DNA of 64,000 bases, from NCBI RefSeq assembly GCF_021341665.1, contig NZ_JAJTTH010000001.1, positions 186,001 through 250,000 on the forward strand. Reading direction: 5' to 3'. Position 1 is the first letter of the stretch. Every line of letters starts with the position of its first letter. Shown piece by piece: positions 44,763 to 60,185 of this stretch. The position numbers and the translations under genes are program-made. This stretch comes from Pseudomonas sp. Au-Pse12. Lineage in GTDB: Bacteria > Pseudomonadota > Gammaproteobacteria > Pseudomonadales > Pseudomonadaceae. The notes beneath the pieces were generated by a model. The model was not told where the DNA came from. It saw only the letters and a program-made list of their open reading frames with translations, and ran no database searches.

Positions 44763-44836
44763 GGCCGAGTAGCAAAATGGTTATGCAGCGGATTGCAAAT
44801 CCGCCTACGCCGGTTCGATTCCGACCTCGGCCTCCA
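44763..44836 (+). tRNA. tRNA-Cys (GCA)
   Basis: A complete cloverleaf of 74 nt including encoded CCA: acceptor GGCCGAG/CTCGGCC, anticodon arm GCGGA-TTGCAAA-TCCGC with anticodon GCA, T-arm GGTTCGATTCC, discriminator T and 3' CCA. It is followed by a strong terminator and then by a decayed integrase on the opposite strand, the classic layout of an element integrated at a tRNA gene. Confidence 0.96.
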
Positions 44837-44842
44837 CCCTTG

Positions 44843-44876
44843 AAAACCCCGTAGATTAACGTCTACGGGGTTTTTT
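44843..44876 (+). terminator. Rho-independent terminator of tRNA-Cys
   Basis: CCCCGTAGA-ttaacg-TCTACGGGG followed by TTTTTT, with flanking AAAA also able to pair. Confidence 0.95.
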
Positions 44877-44935
44877 GTTGCCTGGGATTTGCCAGGTGTT
44901 CCGCAACTTTTGGAATGTGTTCCGCAACCCCCTCC

Positions 44936-45426
44936 TTATTTCGTGGGTTTTACGATCTCTCCGACACGTCGGTAGACCTTCTTGGTGATCTCCTCGGAAG
45001 AGTGGCCGAGCAGTCTGCTGGCATGCTCCAGGGCTATCTCGCTCGCGGCTATTGGTCGTATGTCACGAAACTGAAATTGCCGGATGCTCGTTACCAGAGC
45101 GTTATCGCCATCGGCAGCTGCCTTGATAGCGGCCTTTTCCCGGGCCTCATCCCACCGATTGCGCAGCATCTGCTAGCTCATGCGCAAGCCTGAGGTGTTG
45201 GTGATCAGTACCGAGGTCTTGATGCGATTCATGGCGTGTCGTTCCTTTAGTTTCTCTAGGAAGACCGCCAGGTCTGATTGTTTGCCAGCGTCCTTCAGAA
45301 GAATTCGCAAGCGTTTCTCGGTCTTGCCCTGGCCAATCCGCAGAAGCCTTCGCTCATATCTGTGGTCGCAGTCTTCAGCACATCCGCGGGTCGCTGCCCG
45401 GTGAGGTACGCAAGATCCGTGGCGTC
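44936..45426 (-). pseudogene. Tyrosine recombinase (integrase), C-terminal remnant
   Basis: Reading the minus strand, homologous pieces lie in order: DATDLAYLTGQRPADVLKT (from about 45426), then after a frameshift near 45350 RIGQGKTEKRLRILLKDAG, then after an in-frame TAG (45173-45175) MLRNRWDEAREKAAIK and the catalytic end QFQFRDIRPIAASE...HASRLLGHSSEEITKKVYRR. The R, H and Tyr of the active site are recognisable, but the N-terminal half is missing. The stop probably replaced a Tyr codon. It sits 100 nt from tRNA-Cys and faces it, so it probably integrated the element there. Confidence 0.85.
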
Positions 45427-45427
45427 T

Positions 45428-46073
45428 CTGGGCGCCAAGCTGCAACGAACCTTGCGCGGCATCACCGCCGCGCAGTCTGTTGTCGGCGAAGTGGCGGCCA
45501 AGTACAGCCAGGCCGTGTCGGCGGCGGGGCAGATCCAGCAGCGGCTCGGTACGTTGCAGGAGCAGACCGCCAAGGCCGGACAGGTCAGCCCGTCCCTGGG
45601 CAACATCCTTCCTACCGGTTCATTCGGCGGCCTGGGTACTCTGGTCGCCGAGGCGGTAAAGCCATTCCCGCACCTGCTGATCATTCAGCCGTTCCGGGCT
45701 ACCGGTGCAGCCTTTTACTTCAACCTCGACACCGCAGCCTTTGAAGAGCTGCGCCGTCAGACCGGGTTTCGCTGAGCAGGCCAGGAACGCCTGACCCGCA
45801 GCAGGCGGTGGGGCAGGGTGACGACAAGATCGCCCTCAAGGGCGCGGTGTTTCCTGGGTTCAAGGGGGGCTGGGTCAGTTGCAAAAACTGCGCAGCATCG
45901 GTCGACGCCTGCAGCCGCTGAGTCTGACCACGGGCTACGGCGAAGTGTTGGGCACTTGGTGCCTGACCAGCCTTGAGGAAGAGCAGAGCCATCTGCTGGC
46001 CGGTGGCATTCCGCGTATGCAGGGCTTCTCAATGGAGTTCGTGAGCTATGGCGACGACATGCAGAACGTCTGA
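45428..46073 (+). pseudogene. P2-like tail protein gpU, decayed, with upstream tail-gene fragment
   Basis: The first part (GAKLQRTLRGITAAQSVV... VSPSLGNILPTGSFGG) looks like the end of a tail gene such as a tape measure. It continues into a gpU-like protein (PFRATGAAFYFNLDTAAFEELRRQTGFR), is stopped by TGA at 45773-45775 where a Trp is expected, and then resumes in other frames: GDDKIALKGAVFPGFKGG and LRSIGRRLQPLSLTTGYGEV...EEQSHLLAGGIPRMQGFSMEFVSYGDDMQNV (to 46073). That is one nonsense and two frameshift changes. Confidence 0.75.
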
Positions 46074-46254
46074 CGGGGATCTGCTCGACACCTTGTGTCA
46101 CCAGTATTACGGGCACCTGAATGGCAGTGTCGAAGCGGTGCTGGATGCAAACCAGGGGCTGGCCGATGAGTCCCAGCCGTTCCGGGTTGGGGTGCTGATC
46201 GTGCTGCCGGAGTTGCCTAGCGTGCCTGATGTTGTGGTGAAGTTATGGGATTAA
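46048..46254 (+). CDS. P2-like tail protein gpX (LysM-type)
   Basis: A 68-residue protein. RTSDGDLLDTLCHQYYGHLNGSVEAVLDANQGLADESQPFRVGVLIVLPEL is typical of phage tail protein X, a small LysM-like peptidoglycan-binding protein of contractile tails and R-type tailocins. The start ATG 46048 overlaps the end of gpU in another frame, as in P2. The frame is intact, but its tail partners are decayed, so it is unlikely to act in an assembled tail. Confidence 0.8.
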   Translation: MATTCRTSDGDLLDTLCHQYYGHLNGSVEAVLDANQGLADESQPFRVGVLIVLPELPSVPDVVVKLWD

Positions 46255-46311
46255 AGGTAGCAGTTTGGTAGCATTCGGATAGTAATTTCTACAATGCTAG
46301 GGACTTGGCTT

Positions 46312-46974
46312 ATGAACAAGAAAAAAGTTATAGGGTTTTTAGTTGGTATGGGAATGCTGGGATGCGCGCTGAGTGCTTCTGCTAGTGATAACCTTTTTAA
46401 GTCCTATGCCTATGAATCTCCTATTTCCGCTTATCCGAAGTCAAAGGGTTATTATGACTGCTCTGAAGAGATCGGCGGGAAGGCATTGTGCCTAGATGAT
46501 GTGGATTTTCTTGGTCATAAATTTGATGCAGTACTGGTTTTTTCTAATTCAAAATTGATCATGATGTCGTTGAATAGTGCCTATGATCAGAATCTTTACG
46601 CAACTGTAGTAGGCTCTCTTAGTAAAACGTTCACTCTAGCCGGTCTTGCTAACGGTCAGACTGAGCTAGACTTGGTCCAGCTCGCTTCTAAGGCCTCTAG
46701 CCCTGAGGAGTTTAACTTTAAACTTACCAACTATGAGTCTGCAGCAATCAATAGTGGTAACTTGGTTTACACGTTCATTGAAGGAGTCGATTTGAATAAA
46801 AGATTCGCTAGTATTGCCAGCCTTCTGGATGCATCCGCTGACAATATTCGAATTGCTGAGGTCGAGCTTACTGGAGAGGGAGCCGACTCTAGTTTGATAA
46901 TTAGCTTCAGCTTCCCCAATCTTGAGGCGAAGAAAGTTACAGCCGCAGCCCAAAAGCCTGTCGAATCCTTTTAA
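46312..46974 (+). CDS. Exported protein of unknown function, moron copy 1
   Basis: A 220-residue protein with a signal peptide (KKKVIGFLVGMGMLGCALSASA, cleavage before SDNLF). The mature protein has two Cys pairs-like positions (YYDCSEEIGG, ALCLDDVDFLGHKF) and no domain I recognise. It has low GC, its own leader and terminator, and lies between gpX and gpD, where lysogenic conversion genes (morons) sit in P2-like phages. A same-length paralogue lies at 55254. An ATG upstream at 46294 is possible but the signal peptide favours 46312. Confidence 0.8.
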   Translation: MNKKKVIGFLVGMGMLGCALSASASDNLFKSYAYESPISAYPKSKGYYDCSEEIGGKALCLDDVDFLGHKFDAVLVFSNSKLIMMSLNSAYDQNLYATVVGSLSKTFTLAGLANGQTELDLVQLASKASSPEEFNFKLTNYESAAINSGNLVYTFIEGVDLNKRFASIASLLDASADNIRIAEVELTGEGADSSLIISFSFPNLEAKKVTAAAQKPVESF

Positions 46975-46994
46975 GGCATAAAGTATGTGGCAGA

Positions 46995-47018
46995 GCCCCG
47001 CATAAACGGGGCTTTTTT
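46995..47018 (+). terminator. Terminator of moron copy 1
   Basis: GCCCCG-cataaa-CGGGGC followed by TTTTTT, 20 nt after the stop codon. A degraded equivalent follows the second copy (55936-55954). Confidence 0.9.
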
Positions 47019-47044
47019 GTTTCTGAGGTATTTAAAAGAGCCCC

Positions 47045-47659
47045 ATGTTCCGAATCATTGCGGACGGTAAGAACATCACCGCACTGATCAATGACCGGCT
47101 GTTGACCCTGCGCACCTCGGACAAGCCCGGCATGGAGTCGGACGAGTTTGAGCTACGCATCGACGACCGCGACGGAGCGGTGGCACTGCCCAGCCTTGGC
47201 GCCAATATCGAGATATTCATGGGCTACGCCGGCCAGTCACTGAGCCGCCTAGGTCGCTACATGGTGGACGAGGTGGTGGTAACGGGGCCGTCTGACTCTA
47301 TCGAGATCCGGGGCAAGGCCAGCGACATGCGCGGCAGTGGCAAGACCACCCGCAGCGGGAGCTGGGAAAACGTCCCGCTGCAGCAGATCGTGCGCGATGT
47401 GGCGACCCGCAACGGCTGGCAGCCGGTGTGCCCGGTGACTACCAAGGTGCCCCGGGTCGACCAGCTCAATGAATCCGACTTCAACTTCATCACACGTCTG
47501 GCCAAGCAGTATGACTGCACGGCCAAGCTGCTGGTGCTGCCCCGGCAGGCCGGGCAGAGCGCCAGTGGCAAGAACCTTGGCACCGTCACCATCACCCGCA
47601 GCGACGTGAGCCGCTACACAATCATCATTCCTGCCTTGATCACAGCAAGCCTTACTTGA
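47045..47659 (+). CDS. Phage late control protein gpD (baseplate hub), truncated
   Basis: A 204-residue remnant of a ~330-residue hub protein: FRIIADGKNITALINDRLLTLRTSDKPGMESDEFELRIDDRDG and NESDFNFITRLAKQYDCTAKLL are typical. Homology ends at SDVSRYT (about 47620), after which a short unrelated tail leads to a stop. Just beyond, another frame (SKPYLTVDQAKIRHAFEVALA, 47644-47709) looks like the end of a different gene, so a deletion joined two genes. The protein is likely non-functional. Confidence 0.75.
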   Translation: MFRIIADGKNITALINDRLLTLRTSDKPGMESDEFELRIDDRDGAVALPSLGANIEIFMGYAGQSLSRLGRYMVDEVVVTGPSDSIEIRGKASDMRGSGKTTRSGSWENVPLQQIVRDVATRNGWQPVCPVTTKVPRVDQLNESDFNFITRLAKQYDCTAKLLVLPRQAGQSASGKNLGTVTITRSDVSRYTIIIPALITASLT

Positions 47660-47915
47660 CAGTCGACCAAGCGAAAATTCGACACGCATTTGAGGTTGCG
47701 CTGGCATAGAGACATCATTACTGTTTGGTGGTACAGCTTTGCACAGCAATCGTTTGACAACTGCTCCCAACGCTAGCTGTCAAGCTTCTGTGCTGATAAA
47801 GCAGGGAAGTACTGCACCATGTCATCCAGATGCACCGTAAGCCCAGCCCCCGCGCCGGGCTGAGGTCGCAGAGGGACGACCGTGTTGGCGTCCTCACAAT
47901 CAACGGAATGACGAA

Positions 47916-48575
47916 ATGACGATGAACGCCTACAAAATCATGAGAAAGCGGTACTACGCGCAAGGGTCTACAGTTTTGACGAAGAATGCGCAGTACGGCA
48001 ATCGTATACGCAGGTCTACAGCGTCATTGGCTCTTGCGGAGGCAGCCATTGATGTCTGCAGCGACACCGACGCTACGTTCGAACAGATAATCAATCTGCT
48101 ACAAAATCTACAAATGACACGAGGAGGTTTCCACCTGCCCCCTAGTGTCAGAGCGCATCATGCTGAACGGCTGGAACCTCTCTCTATTGAGGCACCATCG
48201 ATTCTGGCAGGTGACTTTGGAGCAACGTTCTGGGAGTCACTGTATGAGCGTGTCCGGCGTGATGAAAAACCATCTTGCCCTTCTAGGATGGACTCTTACT
48301 TCGCTTGCCGAGATTCAGAGTCACTAGGACGCTACAAGGCCAAACACTGGCTGAACAAAATGGATGACAAGCTGGCCTGCGAGATTACGATTTCAGACTG
48401 CCCTGTTGTATTTGAGGCAGACATGGTGGTTCTGGACGAAATTGATGGAACCATGACGTTTGCCTCGGCAACTCCCCAAATACTTCGCTATTGGAATCAG
48501 GAATTCACAAAGCGGCCCATTGTTGAAGCTCTGTTACAGGGTTGCGTAGTGCTTGGTGCCGAGGTGGAGATCTAG
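47916..48575 (+). CDS. DUF2441-like protein
   Basis: A 219-residue soluble protein. The segment SYFACRDSESLGRYKAKHWLNKMDDKLACEITISDCPVVFEADMVVLDEID followed by RYWNQ resembles the DUF2441 family, whose members have been linked to ADP-ribosyl-like folds; I recall this link only weakly. It stands in the decayed phage region with its own leader. A toxin or effector role is possible but unsupported by neighbours. ATG 47916 or 47922 may be the start. Confidence 0.55.
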   Translation: MTMNAYKIMRKRYYAQGSTVLTKNAQYGNRIRRSTASLALAEAAIDVCSDTDATFEQIINLLQNLQMTRGGFHLPPSVRAHHAERLEPLSIEAPSILAGDFGATFWESLYERVRRDEKPSCPSRMDSYFACRDSESLGRYKAKHWLNKMDDKLACEITISDCPVVFEADMVVLDEIDGTMTFASATPQILRYWNQEFTKRPIVEALLQGCVVLGAEVEI

Positions 48576-48674
48576 CGTTGAATTGATGCTTCTCAGATGC
48601 ACCCAAACCCCGGCCAAAAAATACAGAGATCCGCTGATTTGGCGCCCAGGATCGAGCAGAAAACAGGTGGGTAA

Positions 48675-49058
48675 ATGTTAACTATAGATCATGTCAAAAG
48701 CCTTATTGATAGACATCAAAAAAAAGCGGCAGCGCATATTGAGCTTCTAAAAGCTAAAAAAGATGGTGGGGTGAGTGTTTGTCTTCGGGAAGAGGGTGTT
48801 GCGGTGTACTGGTCTCATCCAGAGGTTTCGTATTTATCTTTAAATACTCTTGATTATATTAATTATTATAAAGAGTTTGTGCGGGTTCCAGGTTTTATTG
48901 ATGAGTTAGACAAGATTAAAAGTGCGGCTCCAGAAAAATTGGAGGAATTATACTTCGGGAGCTTATCTCGTGAATGGAGAATTCAAGGTGTTGTACGTTC
49001 GGGAATTTCGAAAGATGAGGCATCTGAGGAGTTTCTAGATCGAGTTTTTAAGTTGTAA
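48675..49058 (+). CDS. Hypothetical protein, low GC
   Basis: A 127-residue soluble protein (MLTIDHVKSLIDRHQKKAAAHIELLKAKKDGG...), with GC much lower than the genome, suggesting transfer. There is no signal peptide or membrane segment and no family I recognise. Its size and composition resemble immunity-type proteins found in toxin remnants. Confidence 0.55.
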   Translation: MLTIDHVKSLIDRHQKKAAAHIELLKAKKDGGVSVCLREEGVAVYWSHPEVSYLSLNTLDYINYYKEFVRVPGFIDELDKIKSAAPEKLEELYFGSLSREWRIQGVVRSGISKDEASEEFLDRVFKL

Positions 49059-49230
49059 TCTCCGAACCATGCACAGCGCATGGTCGACAACTGGCGTGGG
49101 AATCGTGACCTCATTTGTTGGTCGCATTTGAGCATAACGGCACGTTTTATTGTTTCGATACCAGCAAGCCGATGCTGGAGCACCAGGGCGACAAGATATA
49201 CCCTTTATAAAGGTCTCAGTGCATTCACGT
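49059..49230. other. Broken coding remnants
   Basis: Short frames read as pieces of a lost gene: TTGVGIVTSFVGRI to a stop near 49130, and EHNGTFYCFDTSKPMLEHQGDKIYPL to a TAA at about 49208. Neither has a start or a ribosome site. They suggest deletions in the accessory segment. Confidence 0.35.
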
Positions 49231-49353
49231 ATGAACTGGACAGACAAGCCAGTTGAGGCTGTGGAAAGTGAAATCATGGCTGATTGGCTCCACGCTCAGG
49301 CAATCAACTGGCTTGCCAAAGCACAAATGGCACGCGAAAGCGGCACAGTGTAG
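49231..49353 (+). CDS. Small ORF directly upstream of HNH gene
   Basis: A 40-codon frame (MNWTDKPVEAVESEIMADWLHAQAINW...) ends 6 nt before the HNH start and its last bases form the TAGGA ribosome site of that gene. It is either a small coupled protein or the end of a deleted gene. Confidence 0.35.
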   Translation: MNWTDKPVEAVESEIMADWLHAQAINWLAKAQMARESGTV

Positions 49354-49359
49354 GAACCC

Positions 49360-50079
49360 ATGGCTAACACTCTTACCACCGCTCATATTCAGGGCGCTTA
49401 TCGTATCGCTAGCCAAGTGATGGACCATGGTCTTTCGTTGAAACAAGGCGTTGCCCAGCTCGTTACCGAAGGTGTAGGGGCCACCTATGCCCAGGATCTT
49501 ATTAACGTATACCGGTCCATGCGACTGGGCCGCTGTTATCACCGCACTATCAATGTCGAGGCGACTGATTATTTTCTGCGGCAGTTATTTGAAGATGGGG
49601 GGGCGGCGTATCTTTCGCCAGCTATCAACGCTACCCATCAGCACATCGATTATTACGAAAAACACCAGAAGCTGACGCTTCACCGCAAACGCAAGGTGGT
49701 GGCAGACCTTGAACATCTGCTGGGCGGATCGGTCATGTCGCACTTGGCAGCATTTGAGGAACTGGTACAAGCTGCCCTCGTGGATAGTTCGGACGCACGT
49801 AAAGCTCGGTTGGCGGCTAGGGCGCATCTGAAACCTGAGAGAGTTGTCCTGACATCAACGATGTTTGTCCGTAACCCTGATGTCGTTGCTGAAGCGCTCC
49901 ATCGTGCCGCCGGCGTTTGCGAGGTATGTGTTCAACCCGCGCCCTTTACCAGGAAGTCAAACGGCACGCCTTATTTGGAGGTCCACCACAAAATCCGTCT
50001 GGCCGATGGCGGCCTTGATACCTTGGAAAATGCTGTCGCCTTGTGCCCCAACTGCCACAGGGCATCTCATTATGGATAG
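49360..50079 (+). CDS. HNH endonuclease (McrA-like C-terminus)
   Basis: A 239-residue protein. The C-terminal HNH nuclease with zinc knuckles is clear: CEVCVQPAPF...PYLEVHHKIRLADGGLDTLENAVALCPNCHRASHYG. The N-terminal 170 residues are helical and contain no domain I know, perhaps a DNA- or modification-recognition part, as in McrA-type restriction enzymes. It is an orphan, with no methylase or immunity gene recognised beside it, although a small acidic protein follows 60 nt downstream. Confidence 0.82.
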   Translation: MANTLTTAHIQGAYRIASQVMDHGLSLKQGVAQLVTEGVGATYAQDLINVYRSMRLGRCYHRTINVEATDYFLRQLFEDGGAAYLSPAINATHQHIDYYEKHQKLTLHRKRKVVADLEHLLGGSVMSHLAAFEELVQAALVDSSDARKARLAARAHLKPERVVLTSTMFVRNPDVVAEALHRAAGVCEVCVQPAPFTRKSNGTPYLEVHHKIRLADGGLDTLENAVALCPNCHRASHYG

Positions 50080-50138
50080 CCAACTGTTCCAGGAAACTGC
50101 CTAGGAACACCGTTTGATCTACTCAAGGAAAACGAGCC

Positions 50139-50459
50139 ATGAAAAGTCTAACCAGATCAGAGTTAATCGAGTTAGTGCTTGCCGAAATGGATCGTGTCTG
50201 GGGGGCGAAGGGTTTCGGCGGTGAGTTTGAAGCCTATGCGTGGTTGAAAGCGCACTTTGGGATATCGGAAGAGGAAGACGCGCAGTGGCAGGACGTACTT
50301 TCGGATTGGGCCGGCACGTTTGACGAAGATACGGCGGATTTGGAAGAGAACGAAAGAGAACGGGTGAAAGCGTTTCTCCAAGACGACTCCACCGTCACTG
50401 CTTTTTTGGAAACGCTGCTCCATCGCTACAAAAGCACTGATACGACATACCCTCGCTAA
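50139..50459 (+). CDS. Small acidic protein downstream of HNH
   Basis: A 106-residue, very acidic soluble protein (ISEEEDAQWQDVLSDWAGTFDEDTADLEENERE). Small acidic proteins next to nucleases are often inhibitors or immunity proteins, but no immunity family is recognised. An AAGGA site precedes ATG 50139. Confidence 0.5.
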   Translation: MKSLTRSELIELVLAEMDRVWGAKGFGGEFEAYAWLKAHFGISEEEDAQWQDVLSDWAGTFDEDTADLEENERERVKAFLQDDSTVTAFLETLLHRYKSTDTTYPR

Positions 50460-50704
50460 GTTGATTGAAAAATCCGCTGCACCCTCAAGCCCACCAATGT
50501 GCGTGCGTGTCTTTTTCATGGAGGTAGTTGAGTAGTGGCTAGAAATGATCCGCTTCTGGGCTGGTAAGCAGATAACTAAGTGAAGCTAATCATCACAGAT
50601 GTCAATGACCCGCAGATGGTCGCGCCCTGCACATCGTACAGCTCGGGCACCGTCGATGTTGGTTAGAATGGCGTGTTGAAGTCTATTGCTTGTAAGGGAA
50701 CCCA
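50460..50704. other. Intergenic region with a gene fragment
   Basis: A GTG-initiated frame at 50580 (MKLIITDVNDPQMVAPCTSYSSG...) ends after 29 codons and looks like the beginning of a lost protein. No other gene is seen. Confidence 0.3.
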
Positions 50705-51064
50705 ATGAGCACTGAAAAGCCAGAGCTTTTGTTCATCCTTCAAAGGTTTCTAGATAATGTTTATGAGAGGGCTTCGAAAAGCCAGAGTGTTTTACTTAAA
50801 AGAAATCATGGTCACTACACTTACGCGAATGAAATCCTCTTCGTCTACGTGACGATCTTCCCTAAAGAGGTTGAGCTTGTTTTTGAGAGCAAGCAGGTAG
50901 GTGACGGGGTTTTTAGTATTGCTCTGGATATGTGCATGTCCAGCGGAGAAGTACTGGCTGGCGACCTGCTGTCTCTGAATGGGCGTTGCGAGGAGATCGG
51001 CGCGGCATTGGCCTCGCAAGAAGACGGGGTGTTGGCCCTGTTGTTAAAGTGCTTGGGCAACTGA
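50705..51064 (+). CDS. Hypothetical protein
   Basis: A 119-residue soluble protein (MSTEKPELLFILQRFLDNVYERASKSQSVLLKRNHGHYTYANEILFVYVTIFPKEVELVFESKQ...). GGGAA lies near ATG 50705. It has no recognised family. The same frame stays open after the TGA (51062-51064) to 51376, but without a start or known domain, so a longer ancestral gene cannot be excluded. Confidence 0.5.
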   Translation: MSTEKPELLFILQRFLDNVYERASKSQSVLLKRNHGHYTYANEILFVYVTIFPKEVELVFESKQVGDGVFSIALDMCMSSGEVLAGDLLSLNGRCEEIGAALASQEDGVLALLLKCLGN

Positions 51065-51541
51065 GTCTTTTTTCAAGCGCGTGAACCGCAGGTATTCCGG
51101 TTTGCTGGTTCGTGGGCCCCGAGTTTATGCAGTGAGCGCGCCTGGCCGAAGGCTGTCGCTCCCAACCCACAGAGAACAACACGCCAAACTCTTGAAACCA
51201 CCCCAAAAGCGGGTTCGGGTAAATCTTCTAAAGCACTAAAACGGTTACACCCAGTCATGCCAGGACATCCACGTACATTTGATGGAGCCGCTCGCGGCGA
51301 ACCTCTGGGTCGGATCAAGGGGCAGAACGATACAGCGCTGAGCATTCTGAATGGAGTCGGCTTCATCGACGCTTGAGCGCTTGACGGGTTCGGGTTCGGG
51401 TTCGGCAAGACGATGGTTTCGTCGAAATCTCGGGGATCTTCGCTATTACTCGCGGTATATCTTAAAATGCCCGGTTGCCGAAGAACCGTCATGACTTTAG
51501 CCATGAAGGGCTTCCATCCTTGACATAGAAGTGTGGTTTAG
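51065..51541. other. Region without a supported gene; GGGTTC microrepeat
   Basis: About 475 bases. The plus frame following the previous stop is open to 51376 and ends ...ALSILNGVGFIDA; an overlapping minus frame is also open. Neither has family support. Three tandem GGGTTC units lie at 51386-51403. Decayed DNA is the most likely reading. Confidence 0.35.
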
Positions 51542-52453
51542 ATGAACAAGCCTTTCATTACGCTGTGCCCTGAAATAACTCGGGCGCACGCGTTGACGTT
51601 GATGGATTGGTTGGAAGATGAGCGCGTGACCTGCTACCTGAGCGATTCGCGTCATGTCTCACGCTCCATTGAGCAAGCCATTGATCGGACTCAGTTGCCG
51701 ATCCTGACCCATCTATTCAATCAGGGTGGCCGATTTTTCATGGCCTATGACCGGCACGATGTCCCGGTGGGCTTTGTCCGTCTAATCAAGACCGGTTCAA
51801 ATTGCGAGATAGTCCTGGCCATTGGAGACAGCGACAAATGGGGCCGAAGCCTTGGCGTCCGTACGATTCGCGAAGGCATGAAGCTGGCGTTCCTCGACAT
51901 GCAGGCCGAGAAGCTCATCGCCAAGATTCACCCGGATAACTCGCGCTCGCTGAAAGCCTTTCTGCGTAGCGGCTTCATGCTTGAGAGCGAAACGCCGGCA
52001 TTGAAGTCATTGTCGATGACGGCGGGGCGCTATCTTCAGTTCTTGCGCGAAGGAGCTGGTGGCGACTCCACGAGGATCTATATCACCGAAATCGACAAGG
52101 CCAAGCTCGAAAGTCTAATCGCGTTCGAGCAAGGCCCGGCGATTGTTGAACTCGAACATGAGCTTGAGCGAGCCATTGTCGTCAAGCCGCAGCAGGTGGC
52201 GTGCAATGTCATCACGATGAACTCTAGGGCGTTGCTGCAACTGGACGACGAAGAGTTCGAAGCGGCCTTGGTCTACCCCGAAGACGCGGACAGCAGCGCA
52301 GGAAAGTATTCCGTGTATTCCGATCTAGGTGCCGCCATCCTTGGCTATCAGGAGGGGGACGCCATCGACTGGCGAATTTCTGATCGGACCCGCCGGATTG
52401 AGATCAGGAAAGTGCTTTACCAGCCGGAGGCTGCGGGCGACTTCCACCTGTAA
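51542..52453 (+). CDS. GNAT acetyltransferase fused to a Rnk/GreA-type C-terminal domain
   Basis: A 303-residue fusion. Residues ~1-170 are GNAT-like (MDWLEDERVTCYLSD; IVLAIGDSDKWGRSLGVRTIREGM acetyl-CoA region; NSRSLKAFLRSGFML). Residues ~178-303 match the Rnk regulator of nucleoside diphosphate kinase/GreA-GreB C-terminal fold (RIYITEIDKAKLESLI; NVITMNSRALLQLDDEEFEAALVYPEDADSSAGKYSVYSDLGAAILGYQEGDAIDW; VLYQPEAAGDFHL). Rnk-like domains bind RNA polymerase, so the acetyltransferase may be guided to polymerase. No partner genes adjoin. Confidence 0.8.
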   Translation: MNKPFITLCPEITRAHALTLMDWLEDERVTCYLSDSRHVSRSIEQAIDRTQLPILTHLFNQGGRFFMAYDRHDVPVGFVRLIKTGSNCEIVLAIGDSDKWGRSLGVRTIREGMKLAFLDMQAEKLIAKIHPDNSRSLKAFLRSGFMLESETPALKSLSMTAGRYLQFLREGAGGDSTRIYITEIDKAKLESLIAFEQGPAIVELEHELERAIVVKPQQVACNVITMNSRALLQLDDEEFEAALVYPEDADSSAGKYSVYSDLGAAILGYQEGDAIDWRISDRTRRIEIRKVLYQPEAAGDFHL

Positions 52454-52661
52454 TTGCGCCTTTTGCTCGATGTTCGTCCATCGGGCACGAGGATTCCCCA
52501 AAGGACGATGCCTCGCTTTCCGTGCCTGAGTGACCTGTTGCATGGCCAAGGGTAGGAGCGGAGCCAGTTGCGAAAAGCAGGAGGCGGTAGGACAGACCTA
52601 GCCGGCTCCTGCGTTCGTTTTAATTCTCTAAATCTAAAACCCTGAGCCACGGACGACGACT

Positions 52662-53111
52662 ATGCAGATACGCAAGATGACTCATGAGGACCTGCCAAGC
52701 GCCAGTGCCCTGTGCCTGGAGGCGTTCATGCTGGCGGTTGCGCCCGCGCTGTCAGCGCAGGGCGTAGAAACTTTTACAAAGGTAGCCGCACAGGAAGCGT
52801 TTGCCGAACGAATGGCACATGACAACCTGATGCTGATTTGTGTCGCAGAGGGAACCCTGGTCGGGCTGATCGAGCTAAAGGAAGGACGCCATGTGGCAAT
52901 GCTGTTCGTTGCGCCGACCTGGCAGCGCCGCGGCGTTGGCAAGCGCTTGCTGAGTGCGGCCCTGGAGCAGGCCAGGGCCGATGTGGTAACAGTCAGAGCG
53001 TCGCTGTCTTCAGTGCCAGCTTACGAACGTTACGGTTTTGCGTTGGCGGGGGAAGTGGGCGAGTTTGCCGGGCTGACCTATCAGCCGATGGAGAAGCGCC
53101 TGACCATTTGA
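52662..53111 (+). CDS. GNAT-family N-acetyltransferase
   Basis: A 149-residue single-domain GNAT: MQIRKMTHEDLPSASALCLEAF, LVGLIELKEGRHVAMLFVAPTWQRRGVGKRLLSAAL (acetyl-CoA loop RRGVGK), and VRASLSSVPAYERYGFAL. It resembles small acetyltransferases of unknown substrate. It is independent of the fusion upstream (208-nt gap). Confidence 0.87.
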   Translation: MQIRKMTHEDLPSASALCLEAFMLAVAPALSAQGVETFTKVAAQEAFAERMAHDNLMLICVAEGTLVGLIELKEGRHVAMLFVAPTWQRRGVGKRLLSAALEQARADVVTVRASLSSVPAYERYGFALAGEVGEFAGLTYQPMEKRLTI

Positions 53112-56662: not shown

Positions 56663-57010
56663 ATGATCACGCCTCCCGAACTCTTCAAAAGCCTGGCCGA
56701 TGAAACCCGCGCCCGCGCCACCTTGCTGATTGCCGATCAGGGTGAGCTGTGTGTCTGTGAGCTGATGTGTGCGCTCGATGACAGCCAGCCGAAAGTCAGC
56801 CGGCACCTGGCGCAATTGCGCAGCAGTGGTTTGTTGCTCGATCGCCGCCAGGGCCAGTGGGTGTACTACCGCCTCAACCCCGACCTGCCGGATTGGGTTC
56901 AGCAGGTCTTGCAAGTGACCTTCAAGGCCAACGCCGGTTGGCTCAGGGACAACGCCACCCGCCTGCACAACATGGATGGCCGCCCCGTTCGCGAAGCCGC
57001 CTGCTGCTGA
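56663..57010 (+). CDS. arsR: ArsR metalloid-sensing repressor
   Basis: A 115-residue winged-helix repressor: LFKSLADETRARATLLIADQGELCVCELMCALDDSQPKVSRHLAQLRSSGLLLDRRQGQWVYYRLNPDLP. ELCVCEL carries the As(III)-binding cysteine pair in helix alpha3. It represses its own operon (arsR, arsB remnant, arsC, arsH) and releases DNA with arsenite or antimonite. Confidence 0.94.
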   Translation: MITPPELFKSLADETRARATLLIADQGELCVCELMCALDDSQPKVSRHLAQLRSSGLLLDRRQGQWVYYRLNPDLPDWVQQVLQVTFKANAGWLRDNATRLHNMDGRPVREAACC

Positions 57011-57030
57011 GCTCGGTCGAGAGAGCATTC

Positions 57031-57111
57031 ATGTTGCTTGCGATTGCTGGTGTCGTCTTCAGCCTCATTCCACTCATTTGGCAACCCAGGGCCTTGTGCC
57101 GGAGCCTCTAA
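57031..57111 (+). pseudogene. arsB: arsB remnant (N-terminal stub)
   Basis: ATG TTG CTT GCG gives MLLAIAGVVFSLIPLIWQPRALCRSL and then a stop. This matches the extreme N-terminus of ArsB pumps (MLLA...LVIWQP+GLGIG). The remaining ~400 codons are missing and arsC follows within 30 nt, so an internal deletion removed the arsenite efflux pump. Confidence 0.75.
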
Positions 57112-57139
57112 CGTCCGCCCAAAGCGGCAGGAGCATTGC

Positions 57140-57610
57140 ATGCGAGTCCTGTTCATGTGCACGGCCAACAGTTGCCGCAGCATTCTTTCTGAAGCCATGT
57201 TCAACCACCTGGCACCCCGGGGTTTCGAGGCGCTGAGCGCTGGAAGTTTCCCCAGCGGCCAGGTGTTGCCCCGCAGCCTGCGCACCTTGCAGCAGGCCGG
57301 CATCCCGATCGACGGCCTGTACAGCAAAGGCAATGACGCCTTCAAGGACAGCCCGCCGGATATCGTCATCACCGTTTGCGACAAGGCGGCCGGCGAAAGC
57401 TGCCCGGTGTATTTCGGCGCGGCGCTGAAGGCGCATTGGGGGCTGCAGGACCCGTCCGACATGCACGGTGAAGAGGCGCTGATCGATGCGGCTTTTCGCG
57501 CCACGCTGGCGCACATAGAGCAACGCTGCAAAGCCTTCCTCGCGTTGCCCTTCAATCGTCTCAGCCGTGAAGAGCTGAAAGCCGAGCTCGATCGGATCGG
57601 CGCCCTTTAA
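57140..57610 (+). CDS. arsC: Arsenate reductase ArsC, LMW-phosphatase type
   Basis: A 156-residue enzyme of the thioredoxin/glutathione-coupled class. The P-loop is MCTANSCRSILSEA (catalytic Cys about residue 7); CDKAAGESCPVYFG carries the further redox cysteines, and DPSDMHG the general acid region. It reduces arsenate to arsenite, which then needs an exporter; arsB upstream is broken. GGAG precedes ATG 57140. Confidence 0.92.
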   Translation: MRVLFMCTANSCRSILSEAMFNHLAPRGFEALSAGSFPSGQVLPRSLRTLQQAGIPIDGLYSKGNDAFKDSPPDIVITVCDKAAGESCPVYFGAALKAHWGLQDPSDMHGEEALIDAAFRATLAHIEQRCKAFLALPFNRLSREELKAELDRIGAL

Positions 57611-57619
57611 GGAGTACTT

Positions 57620-58318
57620 ATGTCAGAGCATCTGCCTCATCTGGATTTGAATCTTTTCGACGGCGCGCCAACCGCGATACCGGGCGATCACCCGCCGCGC
57701 ATCCTGTTGCTTTACGGGTCGACCCGCGAGCGTTCCTTCAGTCGTCTGCTGGTCGAGGAGGCCGCGCGCCTGCTTGAGCACTTCGGCGCGCAAACGCGGA
57801 TCTTCAATCCGTCCGGCTTGCCGTTGCCCGACGATGCCCCGGTCGACCATCCCAAGGTGCAGGAACTGCGCGACCTGGTGCTGTGGTCGGAGGGGCAGGT
57901 CTGGTGTTCGCCAGAGCGCCACGGGGCGATGTCGGCGGTGTTCAAATCGCAGATCGATTGGGTGCCATTGGAGCTTGGCGCGGTGCGCCCGACTCAAGGA
58001 AAGACCCTTGCGGTGATGCAGGTCTGCGGTGGCTCCCAATCGTTCAACGTGGTCAATCAACTGCGCGTGCTTGGGCGCTGGATGCGCATGTTCACCATCC
58101 CCAACCAGTCCTCGGTGCCCAAGGCGTACATGGAATTCGACGAAGCCGGGCGGATGAAGTCGTCGCCGTTCTACGACCGGGTTGTCGATGTCATGGAAGA
58201 GCTGGTGAAGTTCACCGTGCTGCTGCGTGATCGTCAGGCGTTTCTGCTCGATCGCTATTCCGAACGCAAGGAAACGGCCGAGCAACTGATGGCTCGGGTA
58301 AACCAGCGGTCAATCTGA
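57620..58318 (+). CDS. arsH: ArsH NADPH-dependent FMN oxidoreductase
   Basis: A 232-residue flavodoxin-like enzyme: [26 protein letters not shown] (FMN phosphate loop), [32 protein letters not shown], and [28 protein letters not shown]. ArsH oxidises trivalent organoarsenicals. It is 9 nt after arsC (GGAGTACTT spacer). The cassette thus keeps sensing, reduction and organoarsenical detoxification but not efflux. Confidence 0.93.
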
Positions 58319-58638: not shown

Positions 58639-59054
58639 CGTTGTTACTCGGCGGGTAAGTTGCCGAATGATATCAGCTAAGGGGATTGGCCCGTTCACCT
58701 GTGCCGAGCACCGGTTGCACGGAATCGGCTGTCGACCCGGATCAGGCCATCACTGCTTGTCCTTGGAAGTCATCGAGCCGCGTCCGGTTTTCCGGCAATG
58801 GATAACCTGAAGAATGTGGGGATTTTCAGCGCGGGCTTTTAGCTTCGGTCCGCGGTGTTGTAGCGGGTGCTTGATCAGGGTGGCGTGACAATATGCCGCA
58901 CTGGCGCAATTGCAGGCTTTGGTCTTTGCTGTTTCGGGCCCGGCGGCGGGAGTGCTGGCTGAGCTTGCAGCGCGCCGTGCCATGGGTGTGCATCCGCCCC
59001 CTGAGACAGGGGAACGCGCGGATCGTGATCATTGTCTCGACCAAGGAGGTCAGG
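58639..59054. other. Intergenic region before secreted peptides
   Basis: About 415 bases with no gene I can support. Frames of about 70 codons occur on both strands but lack family resemblance and start signals. It ends with an AGGAGG site (59045-59049) for the first peptide. Confidence 0.4.
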
Positions 59055-59195
59055 TTGAAAAGAAAAATGCTGGCGGCTTCGTTGCTGCTGTGGATGTTCT
59101 CGCTGACAGCGCAGGCGGACTGCGCGGTGCTCGGCCCAGGGGAAGATCCGTGTGCCGGTCCGGTGCTCGGCCCTACGGTCTGCGAATGCCCTTGA
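59055..59195 (+). CDS. Small cysteine-rich secreted peptide 1
   Basis: A 46-residue precursor starting at TTG 59055, 5-8 nt after AGGAGG (a TTG start; the next ATG is at 59067). The signal peptide (MLAASLLLWMFSLTAQA) is followed by a 25-residue mature peptide DCAVLGPGEDPCAGPVLG + PTVCECP with four Cys and repeated GP turns. A tandem paralogue follows. No family is known to me. Size, cysteines and export suggest a disulfide-bonded envelope or secreted peptide. Confidence 0.65.
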   Translation: MKRKMLAASLLLWMFSLTAQADCAVLGPGEDPCAGPVLGPTVCECP

Positions 59196-59204
59196 TGACT
59201 GTCC

Positions 59205-59222
59205 GTGCCCTTGCCAGGGCAC
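59205..59222 (+). other. Hairpin between the two peptide genes
   Basis: GTGCCCT-tgcc-AGGGCAC, a 7-bp stem in the gap between the tandem peptide genes; no T-run. Confidence 0.5.
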
Positions 59223-59256
59223 AGGGACTATTGGATGACTGACCAGGAGGTCGCAC

Positions 59257-59394
59257 ATGAAGAAAGTGTTGTTGGCGGTATTGCTGCTGTGGGGGTTCTC
59301 CCTGACTGCCCAGGCCTCGTGCCCGGTGTTCGGCCCATCCAAGGATCCGTGCAGCGGTCCGGTATTCGGTCCATCGACCTGCGAATGCCCTTGA
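59257..59394 (+). CDS. Small cysteine-rich secreted peptide 2
   Basis: A 45-residue paralogue of peptide 1: MKKVLLAVLLLWGFSLTAQA signal, mature SCPVFGPSKDPCSGPVFG + PSTCECP. The four Cys, the C-V-x-G-P...DPC-x-GPV-x-GP frame and the CECP end are conserved, while the first residues and loops differ. AGGAGG precedes ATG 59257. Conservation of Cys and Gly-Pro positions between copies implies selection on the peptide. Confidence 0.7.
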   Translation: MKKVLLAVLLLWGFSLTAQASCPVFGPSKDPCSGPVFGPSTCECP

Positions 59395-59482: not shown

Positions 59483-59956
59483 TCACAGATGGGCAATCAA
59501 GTGCTGGTGATATCCGCTTTCATCAGTCGGGGCCGGGTATCGGCTTTCATCGATCAGCGAGCGCAACTGCTGCGAGTGGCTGGACTGCCTGAAGGCGACC
59601 TGGCATTCGGCAGCGTCAAAGAACCCTCGCAGAAATGGCAGGGCCAGGGGCAGCAGCGCAGGCTCTATCTTCAACGAGAGGCTGACGATATCCAGTTGGT
59701 CGGTGGGGTCTCTGTACAGGTCGATGACCAGCAGGCTCTGACTTCCAGTGCTCGGATAGACATGCACATCACCCGCACCGACCGGGGTGTCATCGAAATA
59801 GGTGGTGTATAGCCGGGGAATGTCGAGGGCGATGCCCAGTGTGCTCAATGCTGCTGCCAGGTCGGCGTTGGGCAGGTGCTGGTCTTCGGCGCAGGTGACG
59901 AAGTCGGGCATTGAGACGCAGATGTCGAACTCATTGGCGCAGATGATGGGTGTCAC
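59483..59956 (-). CDS. Hypothetical protein, GTG start
   Basis: A 157-residue soluble protein (VTPIICANEFDICVSMPDFVTCAEDQHLPNADLAAALSTLGIALDIPRLYTTYFDDTPVGAGDVHVYPS...). GTG 59956 follows AGGAACG; the frame continues upstream to 60160 but that part looks random. No family is recognised. Convergent with the peptide genes. Confidence 0.6.
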   Translation of the reverse strand: MTPIICANEFDICVSMPDFVTCAEDQHLPNADLAAALSTLGIALDIPRLYTTYFDDTPVGAGDVHVYPSTGSQSLLVIDLYRDPTDQLDIVSLSLKIEPALLPLALPFLRGFFDAAECQVAFRQSSHSQQLRSLIDESRYPAPTDESGYHQHLIAHL

Positions 59957-60185
59957 TGGAAAGCGTTCCTGGCGGTGGCGGGCGGCTAGCCTAACACCTG
60001 GGCATGCGGTCTTTGCAAACGCCGCCAATGCGCAGCCGATCGATCGGCCGAAGCCGCTCAAGGTGTGGCGCGCATCCAGGGTTGTCCTGTAGTTTTCACC
60101 AGGGCCGGCGATAGCCTGCAGCGAAGCTGGCCAGGCGCGGACGTTGGGAGTCTTGCGCAACTCAATCCAAGGACAGTAGCCCTAG

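Follow-up and report, generated by a model that had tools for sequence, protein, structure and literature searches.

The closest described relatives of the two peptide genes reported here are the proteins of the PA0050 family, which is defined by the NCBIfam model NF047882 ('PA0050 family protein'; 45 positions, curated cut-off 45 bits) and is already known and named, with a record that gives no function. PA0050 itself, a numbered gene of P. aeruginosa, is presumed to belong to the family from its NCBIfam name. Its locus tag in PA14 is presumably PA14_00630; neither this tag nor 'PA0050 family' nor NF047882 was found in the main texts of the literature, and the same main texts (as distinct from supplements) gave no function for the family and no match to the peptide strings. 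What is published is expression: in the lists of the top 20 genes induced in meropenem-treated biofilms, PA0050 appears at log2 1.60 (single-species) and 1.82 (dual-species) together with hcp1, clpV1 and vgrG1, and the type VI genes are, according to the discussion in that report, perhaps switched on by lysis (PMC9993114). In the gene list given for a mexT deletion, PA0050 is up by 1.2 log2, alongside pqs, phenazine and many other genes (PMC12607905). A second point of reference is found among the exported factors under Gac/Rsm control, such as H1 type VI secretion (H1-T6SS) of P. aeruginosa, with which PA0050 is co-listed and which is described as a Gac/Rsm target de-repressed on lysis of kin cells (PMC4348357). 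The sites at which such control is exerted are described as GGA in a hairpin loop, with the SELEX consensus RUACARGGAUGU for CsrA/RsmA (PMC7652899); ANGGA in a loop or in unstructured RNA is given as an alternative form of the site, and RsmN bound a 5-nt loop at 526 nM, a 4-nt loop being weakly bound by RsmN or RsmA (PMC3791407).

The window, by which we mean the whole stretch of 64,000 nucleotides from Pseudomonas sp. Au-Pse12 that was analysed, carries two members of this family in tandem. The initial annotation had proposed tandem genes for 25-residue, cysteine-rich and apparently exported peptides, and both open reading frames, here called pepA and pepB, are present (Table 1). The pepA precursor consists of the signal part LKRKMLAASLLLWMFSLTAQA and the mature part DCAVLGPGEDPCAGPVLGPTVCECP, that of pepB of MKKVLLAVLLLWGFSLTAQA and SCPVFGPSKDPCSGPVFGPSTCECP; each runs from a lysine-bearing start through a hydrophobic stretch to an A-Q-A end and a remainder of 25 residues. 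The signal-peptide-like front and the equal mature length are thus as proposed, given cleavage after AQA, a site placed by eye on which the length of 25 in both depends. The four cysteines and the CECP end are likewise found in both mature parts, with the spacing C-x9-C-x9-C-x-C and two V-x-G-P units. The claimed GPVxGP-type repeats stand in part: there is an internal repeat of two units, and the unit is V-[FLI]-G-P, the flanking residues differing between the copies. The pattern TGYGMRTGYCCNTGA, taken from the two 3' ends, has only those two sites in the window vs 0.00 expected. A lipobox has the form [LVI][ASTVI][GAS]C; judged by eye it is not present at the first cysteine, where pepA and pepB read Q-A-S-C and Q-A-D-C, and one relative (the L057/L075 sequence) reads L-A-A-C there.

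Table 1. Positions of the peptide genes, candidate control elements and upstream ars genes in the window.
Feature	Position	Strand	Description
ArsR	56663-57010		
ArsC-like	57140-57610		low-molecular-weight phosphatase-fold protein
ArsH	57620-58318		
Conserved upstream block	58902..58932	+	TGGCGCAAT-N9-TGGTCTTTGCTGT
Candidate Rsm site on pepA ribosome-binding site	59039..59051	+	GACC-AAGGA-GGTC
pepA	59055..59195	+	46-aa precursor, TTG start; NF047882 95.8 bits; purifying selection
pepA predicted signal peptide	59055-59117		
pepA mature part	59118-59192		25 aa
Stable predicted hairpin between pepA and pepB	59201..59228	+	without T run
Candidate Rsm site on pepB ribosome-binding site	59241..59252	+	GACC-AGGA-GGTC
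pepB	59257..59394	+	45-aa precursor, ATG start; NF047882 97.9 bits; purifying selection
pepB predicted signal peptide	59257-59316		
pepB mature part	59317-59391		25 aa

pepA and pepB are real genes and paralogous members of the PA0050 family. The initial annotation held the family to be unfamiliar and its members too short for most automatic annotation, which is not the case: the curated model matches both peptides (E 1.2e-27 for pepA and 2.5e-28 for pepB) over positions 1-45 and 2-45 at roughly twice its cut-off, all 25 aligned members match it as well, and no measured feature sets pepA or pepB apart from the family. Other collections returned little. No Pfam family matched the three peptides tried, and no family of the PADLOC anti-phage defence proteins matched the nine members scanned; PHROGs gave no match below E 0.2 and PDB sequences none below E 0.43, and the NCBIfam entry hit_Bd0108 weakly matched 2 of the 25 members (best E 0.013). 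What we describe here in addition, as read from the sequence, is the tandem A/B arrangement, the matching of the V-x-G-P units and the Rsm-like leaders; that the neighbours of the pair change between loci is a new observation for the family.

Selection acts strongly on the peptide, as the initial annotation had supposed, and the mature part is more tightly constrained than the signal part. The four cysteines, both V.GP units, D30, P31 and the A-x-A before the first cysteine do not vary among the 25 aligned members. In the mature region pN/pS is 0.15 for pepB (23 sequences) and 0.21 for pepA (15 rows, two of which stand for a single gene owing to a nested alternative start), and dN/dS is about 0.09 and 0.11, respectively, compared with 0.20 and 0.30 in the signal part; reading the same DNA out of frame gives a pN/pS of 1.79-3.61. 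The pair is also kept under selection in related species, an absence of conservation having been named beforehand as one refuting outcome.

The two V-x-G-P units are matched to each other. The residue between V and GP is identical in both units in 41 of 41 distinct genes (the nested pepA start being left out): F/F in 23 pepB genes, L/L in 14 pepA genes, and L/L, L/L, F/F and I/I in four genes of a third type (type C) that include one from Burkholderia; independent switches of the matched residue are few, about three by inspection. Gene conversion was considered as the cause and rejected, as similarity at the synonymous third positions of V, G and P is no higher inside a gene than across genes (0.429 v 0.436, p 0.60, for pepA; 0.348 v 0.404, p 0.90, for pepB). 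The two matched residues may instead be in contact, either with one another or with a common partner, as would be the case in a two-fold pseudo-symmetric loop. The AlphaFold2 model is poor (pLDDT 62.8, pTM 0.28).

The leaders of both genes carry candidate Rsm sites over their ribosome-binding sites (Table 1). We scored leaders against the ten-letter Rsm motif W-C-A-N-G-G-A-N-G-W: 30 of 38 leader rows reach 9 or 10 of 10 and 33 of 38 reach at least 8, and among distinct leaders 25 of 33 reach at least 9. Four further leaders score 7, 8, 9 and 0, the one at 9 belonging to a gene that had been counted from another start. Type C leaders score 5-6 of 10 at the Shine-Dalgarno (SD) sequence, which is no fit, and the Burkholderia leader has no GGA within its last 24 bases. 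The comparison with control gene starts was made for peptide leaders with GGAG[GA], which leaves out type C: 14 of 19 distinct peptide leaders score at least 9, compared with 4 of 44 control gene starts, and the motif together with a 3-bp hairpin is found in 13 of 19 compared with 3 of 44. A strong SD by itself resembles an Rsm site; against controls with the same strong SD (GGAGGT, n=4), and with related rows counted as independent, the motif alone is found in 14 of 18 vs 1 of 4 (p = 0.077) and motif plus hairpin in 13 of 18 vs 0 of 4 (p = 0.017).

Covariation in the candidate stems differs between the two genes. Over 13 distinct pepA leaders, which include the L090/L097 leader and the L049 row (compensatory change; frameshifted-looking copy), 94.2% of the cells of the four-pair stem are paired, slid versions of the stem reach at most 46.2%, and three pairs show covariation, with four cells changed on both sides; this covariation score was reached by 0 of 500 shuffles, which ignore relatedness. 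Over 17 distinct pepB leaders 80.9% of the cells are paired, with no compensatory change. The pepB candidate hairpin is present in both the minimum-energy and the centroid fold of the window's leader; for pepA, the window's own leader lacks the hairpin in its minimum-energy fold, and two of three further pepA leaders, one of them L049, have it in theirs. The genome itself holds two CsrA-family genes and an RsmY RNA (125.5 bits). Taken as sequence evidence, these data moderately support a model in which RsmA/RsmE would repress translation at the ribosome-binding sites, the case being stronger for pepA than for pepB. The weak binding of a 4-nt-loop hairpin by RsmN or RsmA (PMC3791407) counts against it.

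Two further elements may contribute to control. The TGGTCTT core of the upstream block is kept in 10 of the 13 pepA upstream regions that were aligned; the block itself, allowing up to three mismatches, is found nowhere else in the 6.98-Mb genome and may serve as the pair's promoter. A sigma-54 promoter was rejected for this block, the spacing being unfit by eye. The hairpin between the genes possibly tunes pepB, or sets the pepA:pepB ratio.

The family is patchily distributed. With pepB as query (E <= 1e-4) it is matched in 19 of 398 genomes of the genus, the window's own genome counted, and the 19 loci comprise 12 with an intact pair, five with pepB alone and two with a single type C gene. 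Of the five loci with pepB alone, three show remains resembling pepA next to it: L047 and L052 have C-terminal pepA-like stretches of 12 and 19 aa, and L049 has a longer pepA copy that is one base shorter in the alignment and looks frameshifted. Named carriers (17 loci) include P. soli, P. protegens, P. sichuanensis, P. fuscovaginae, P. entomophila, P. cichorii, P. capsici, P. mosselii, P. piscis and P. chlororaphis; strains FD6 and 14B2 of P. protegens are among them. At least 7 of 298 genomes in a sample of the taxonomic family lie above the model cut-off, all of them in the window's genus, and no family match was found in the 25 genomes tried from the genus to which G490 belongs, presumed to be that of P. 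aeruginosa. Four surveys, which scored at most 19-24 first-look candidates per genome and whose negatives are soft, gave borderline matches in 2/293, 6/369, 1/299 and 1/298 genomes (19.0-22.3 bits, frames of 84-299 aa), which we take as chance; of 95 genomes searched, 12 matched at E <= 0.1, but only G000 and G018 clearly so, and the rest (E 7.9e-4 to 0.09) are likewise taken as chance.

Outside the genus, a relative in Burkholderia stagnalis, on a 3.17-Mb replicon, has VIGP units and four cysteines and scores 76.5 bits against NF047882. About 500 bases of B. stagnalis (L079:3895-4408) align at 72-75% identity with three Pseudomonas type C loci, and the aligned block continues beyond the peptide gene as far as the region in which L057 has its next called gene; an alignment of this extent speaks for a transfer between Burkholderia and Pseudomonas. 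Carriage as mobile-element cargo was considered and rejected: 50,697 phage records gave no match, viral contigs gave none that could be confirmed, and among 72,556 plasmid records the single match was to the 3.17-Mb replicon of Burkholderia.

The neighbours of the pair vary from locus to locus, and no enzyme, transporter or immunity gene was recognised as accompanying it within the compared loci. A threonine-dehydratase-like gene lies near the pair, on a side common to three of the 18 other loci. Adjoining pepB on the minus strand (59483-60160) is a 225-aa open reading frame that neither Pfam nor NCBIfam matches; it is retained in L042 and L043, and L044 has fragments of it. Farther upstream in the window, at 44763-53111, a tRNA-Cys precedes a region whose G+C is lower (0.49-0.52 at 46-52 kb) and which holds a phage tail hub GPD-like frame (47045-47659) and an HNH endonuclease frame (49360-50079); this is possibly an island or prophage remnant. 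At 51542-52453 a GNAT acetyltransferase domain shares a single frame with an Rnk N-terminus and a GreA/GreB C-terminal domain, which appears to be an unusual arrangement.

As an explanation of the pair we tentatively favour, while rating it somewhat below an even chance, exported disulfide-bonded peptides under Gac/Rsm control that act outside the cytoplasm in competition or defence. The identity of the genes is firm and the regulation moderately supported; the action is what we infer. Sec would export the precursors, with cleavage following A-Q-A; once in the oxidising periplasm, their four cysteines would pair into two disulfides, and these would close a small two-fold pseudo-symmetric loop made of two V-x-G-P turns. 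RsmA/RsmE bound at the ribosome-binding sites would silence the message, chiefly that of pepA, and GacS/GacA, acting through RsmY/Z, would release it at high cell density or after lysis of kin cells; these two steps have moderate support. The product may be a self-sufficient exported factor of competition and danger response, a stand-alone role being suggested because the neighbours change while 12 of the 19 loci keep an intact pair. In the weakest step of the scheme, the peptides might protect the producer's own envelope or neutralise something there, which we consider likelier than killing others because no immunity gene travels with the pair. The likeness to H1 type VI secretion, which we count in favour of this reading, lies in the Rsm-like ribosome-binding sites and in the co-listing of PA0050; the difference is that pepA and pepB encode Sec-type precursors of about 45 residues, which are not type VI components, and that the Rsm sites here are candidates.

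Three other functions could be assigned to such peptides, and each of them is without the partners that it would lead one to expect. It is unlikely that the pair is a secreted two-component bacteriocin whose peptides jointly damage competing cells. Two adjacent small exported peptides do recall the two-peptide bacteriocins and class II microcins, the paralogues are in tandem with cysteine-rich mature parts, and the induced-gene lists show PA0050 rising with type VI genes (PMC9993114). However, the A-Q-A end is of the signal-peptidase type and not a GG leader, no conserved immunity or transport candidate (ABC export gene included) lies beside the pair, 25 of 26 distinct mature strings are neutral to acidic, with a net charge of 0 or below, and pepB persists in the five of 19 loci in which pepA is absent or decayed. 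The antimicrobial role suggested in the initial annotation thus finds no specific support.

An extracellular signal, or a host-directed peptide of plant- and soil-associated pseudomonads, is distinctly unlikely: the carriers P. protegens, P. fuscovaginae, P. cichorii, P. entomophila and P. chlororaphis and the common core of the two paralogues would suit it, but no linked receptor gene was seen in the compared loci, there is no known route across the outer membrane, and occurrence in 19 of 398 genomes is patchy.

We regard as improbable a periplasmic metal binder that uses the four cysteines and the terminal C-x-C to chelate copper, zinc or arsenic, a role that the initial annotation had also raised. 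Beyond the number of cysteines and the C-x-C end, it is the window's own surroundings that suggest it, with ArsR, ArsC-like and ArsH genes 0.7-2.4 kb upstream of the pair; these stand in a row (56663-58318) that has no space for an ArsB/Acr3 pump between ArsR and ArsC. Yet a minus-strand DUF2986 gene separates the ars genes from the pair, and a search of the other 18 loci, each of 14 kb, found ars genes in none, so that the arsenic link was dropped and nothing but the cysteines themselves speaks for metal. Cysteines in the periplasm, moreover, tend toward oxidation. Finally, a conserved RNA or chance frames whose peptides are not made, as short frames in GC-rich DNA with conserved leaders might suggest, are hardly credible in view of the in-frame dN/dS of about 0.1 (against the out-of-frame ratios above), the good SD sequences and the curated family model.

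Returning to exported, Gac/Rsm-controlled peptides as the favoured explanation, its extension to the whole PA0050 family is more doubtful: the family would be an unrecognised class of exported disulfide mini-peptides under Gac/Rsm control, made without immunity gene or partner and serving in antagonism and danger response, in which the V-x-G-P turns must match, two versions are encoded per message, and the gene is occasionally passed to Burkholderia.

For a named family without a function, our analysis offers a testable idea, namely control by Gac/Rsm and action outside the cytoplasm, and it pinpoints the features under selection, the matched twin V-x-G-P units and the four cysteines. If the idea is true, small exported peptides would join type VI secretion and antibiotics in the danger response of pseudomonads.
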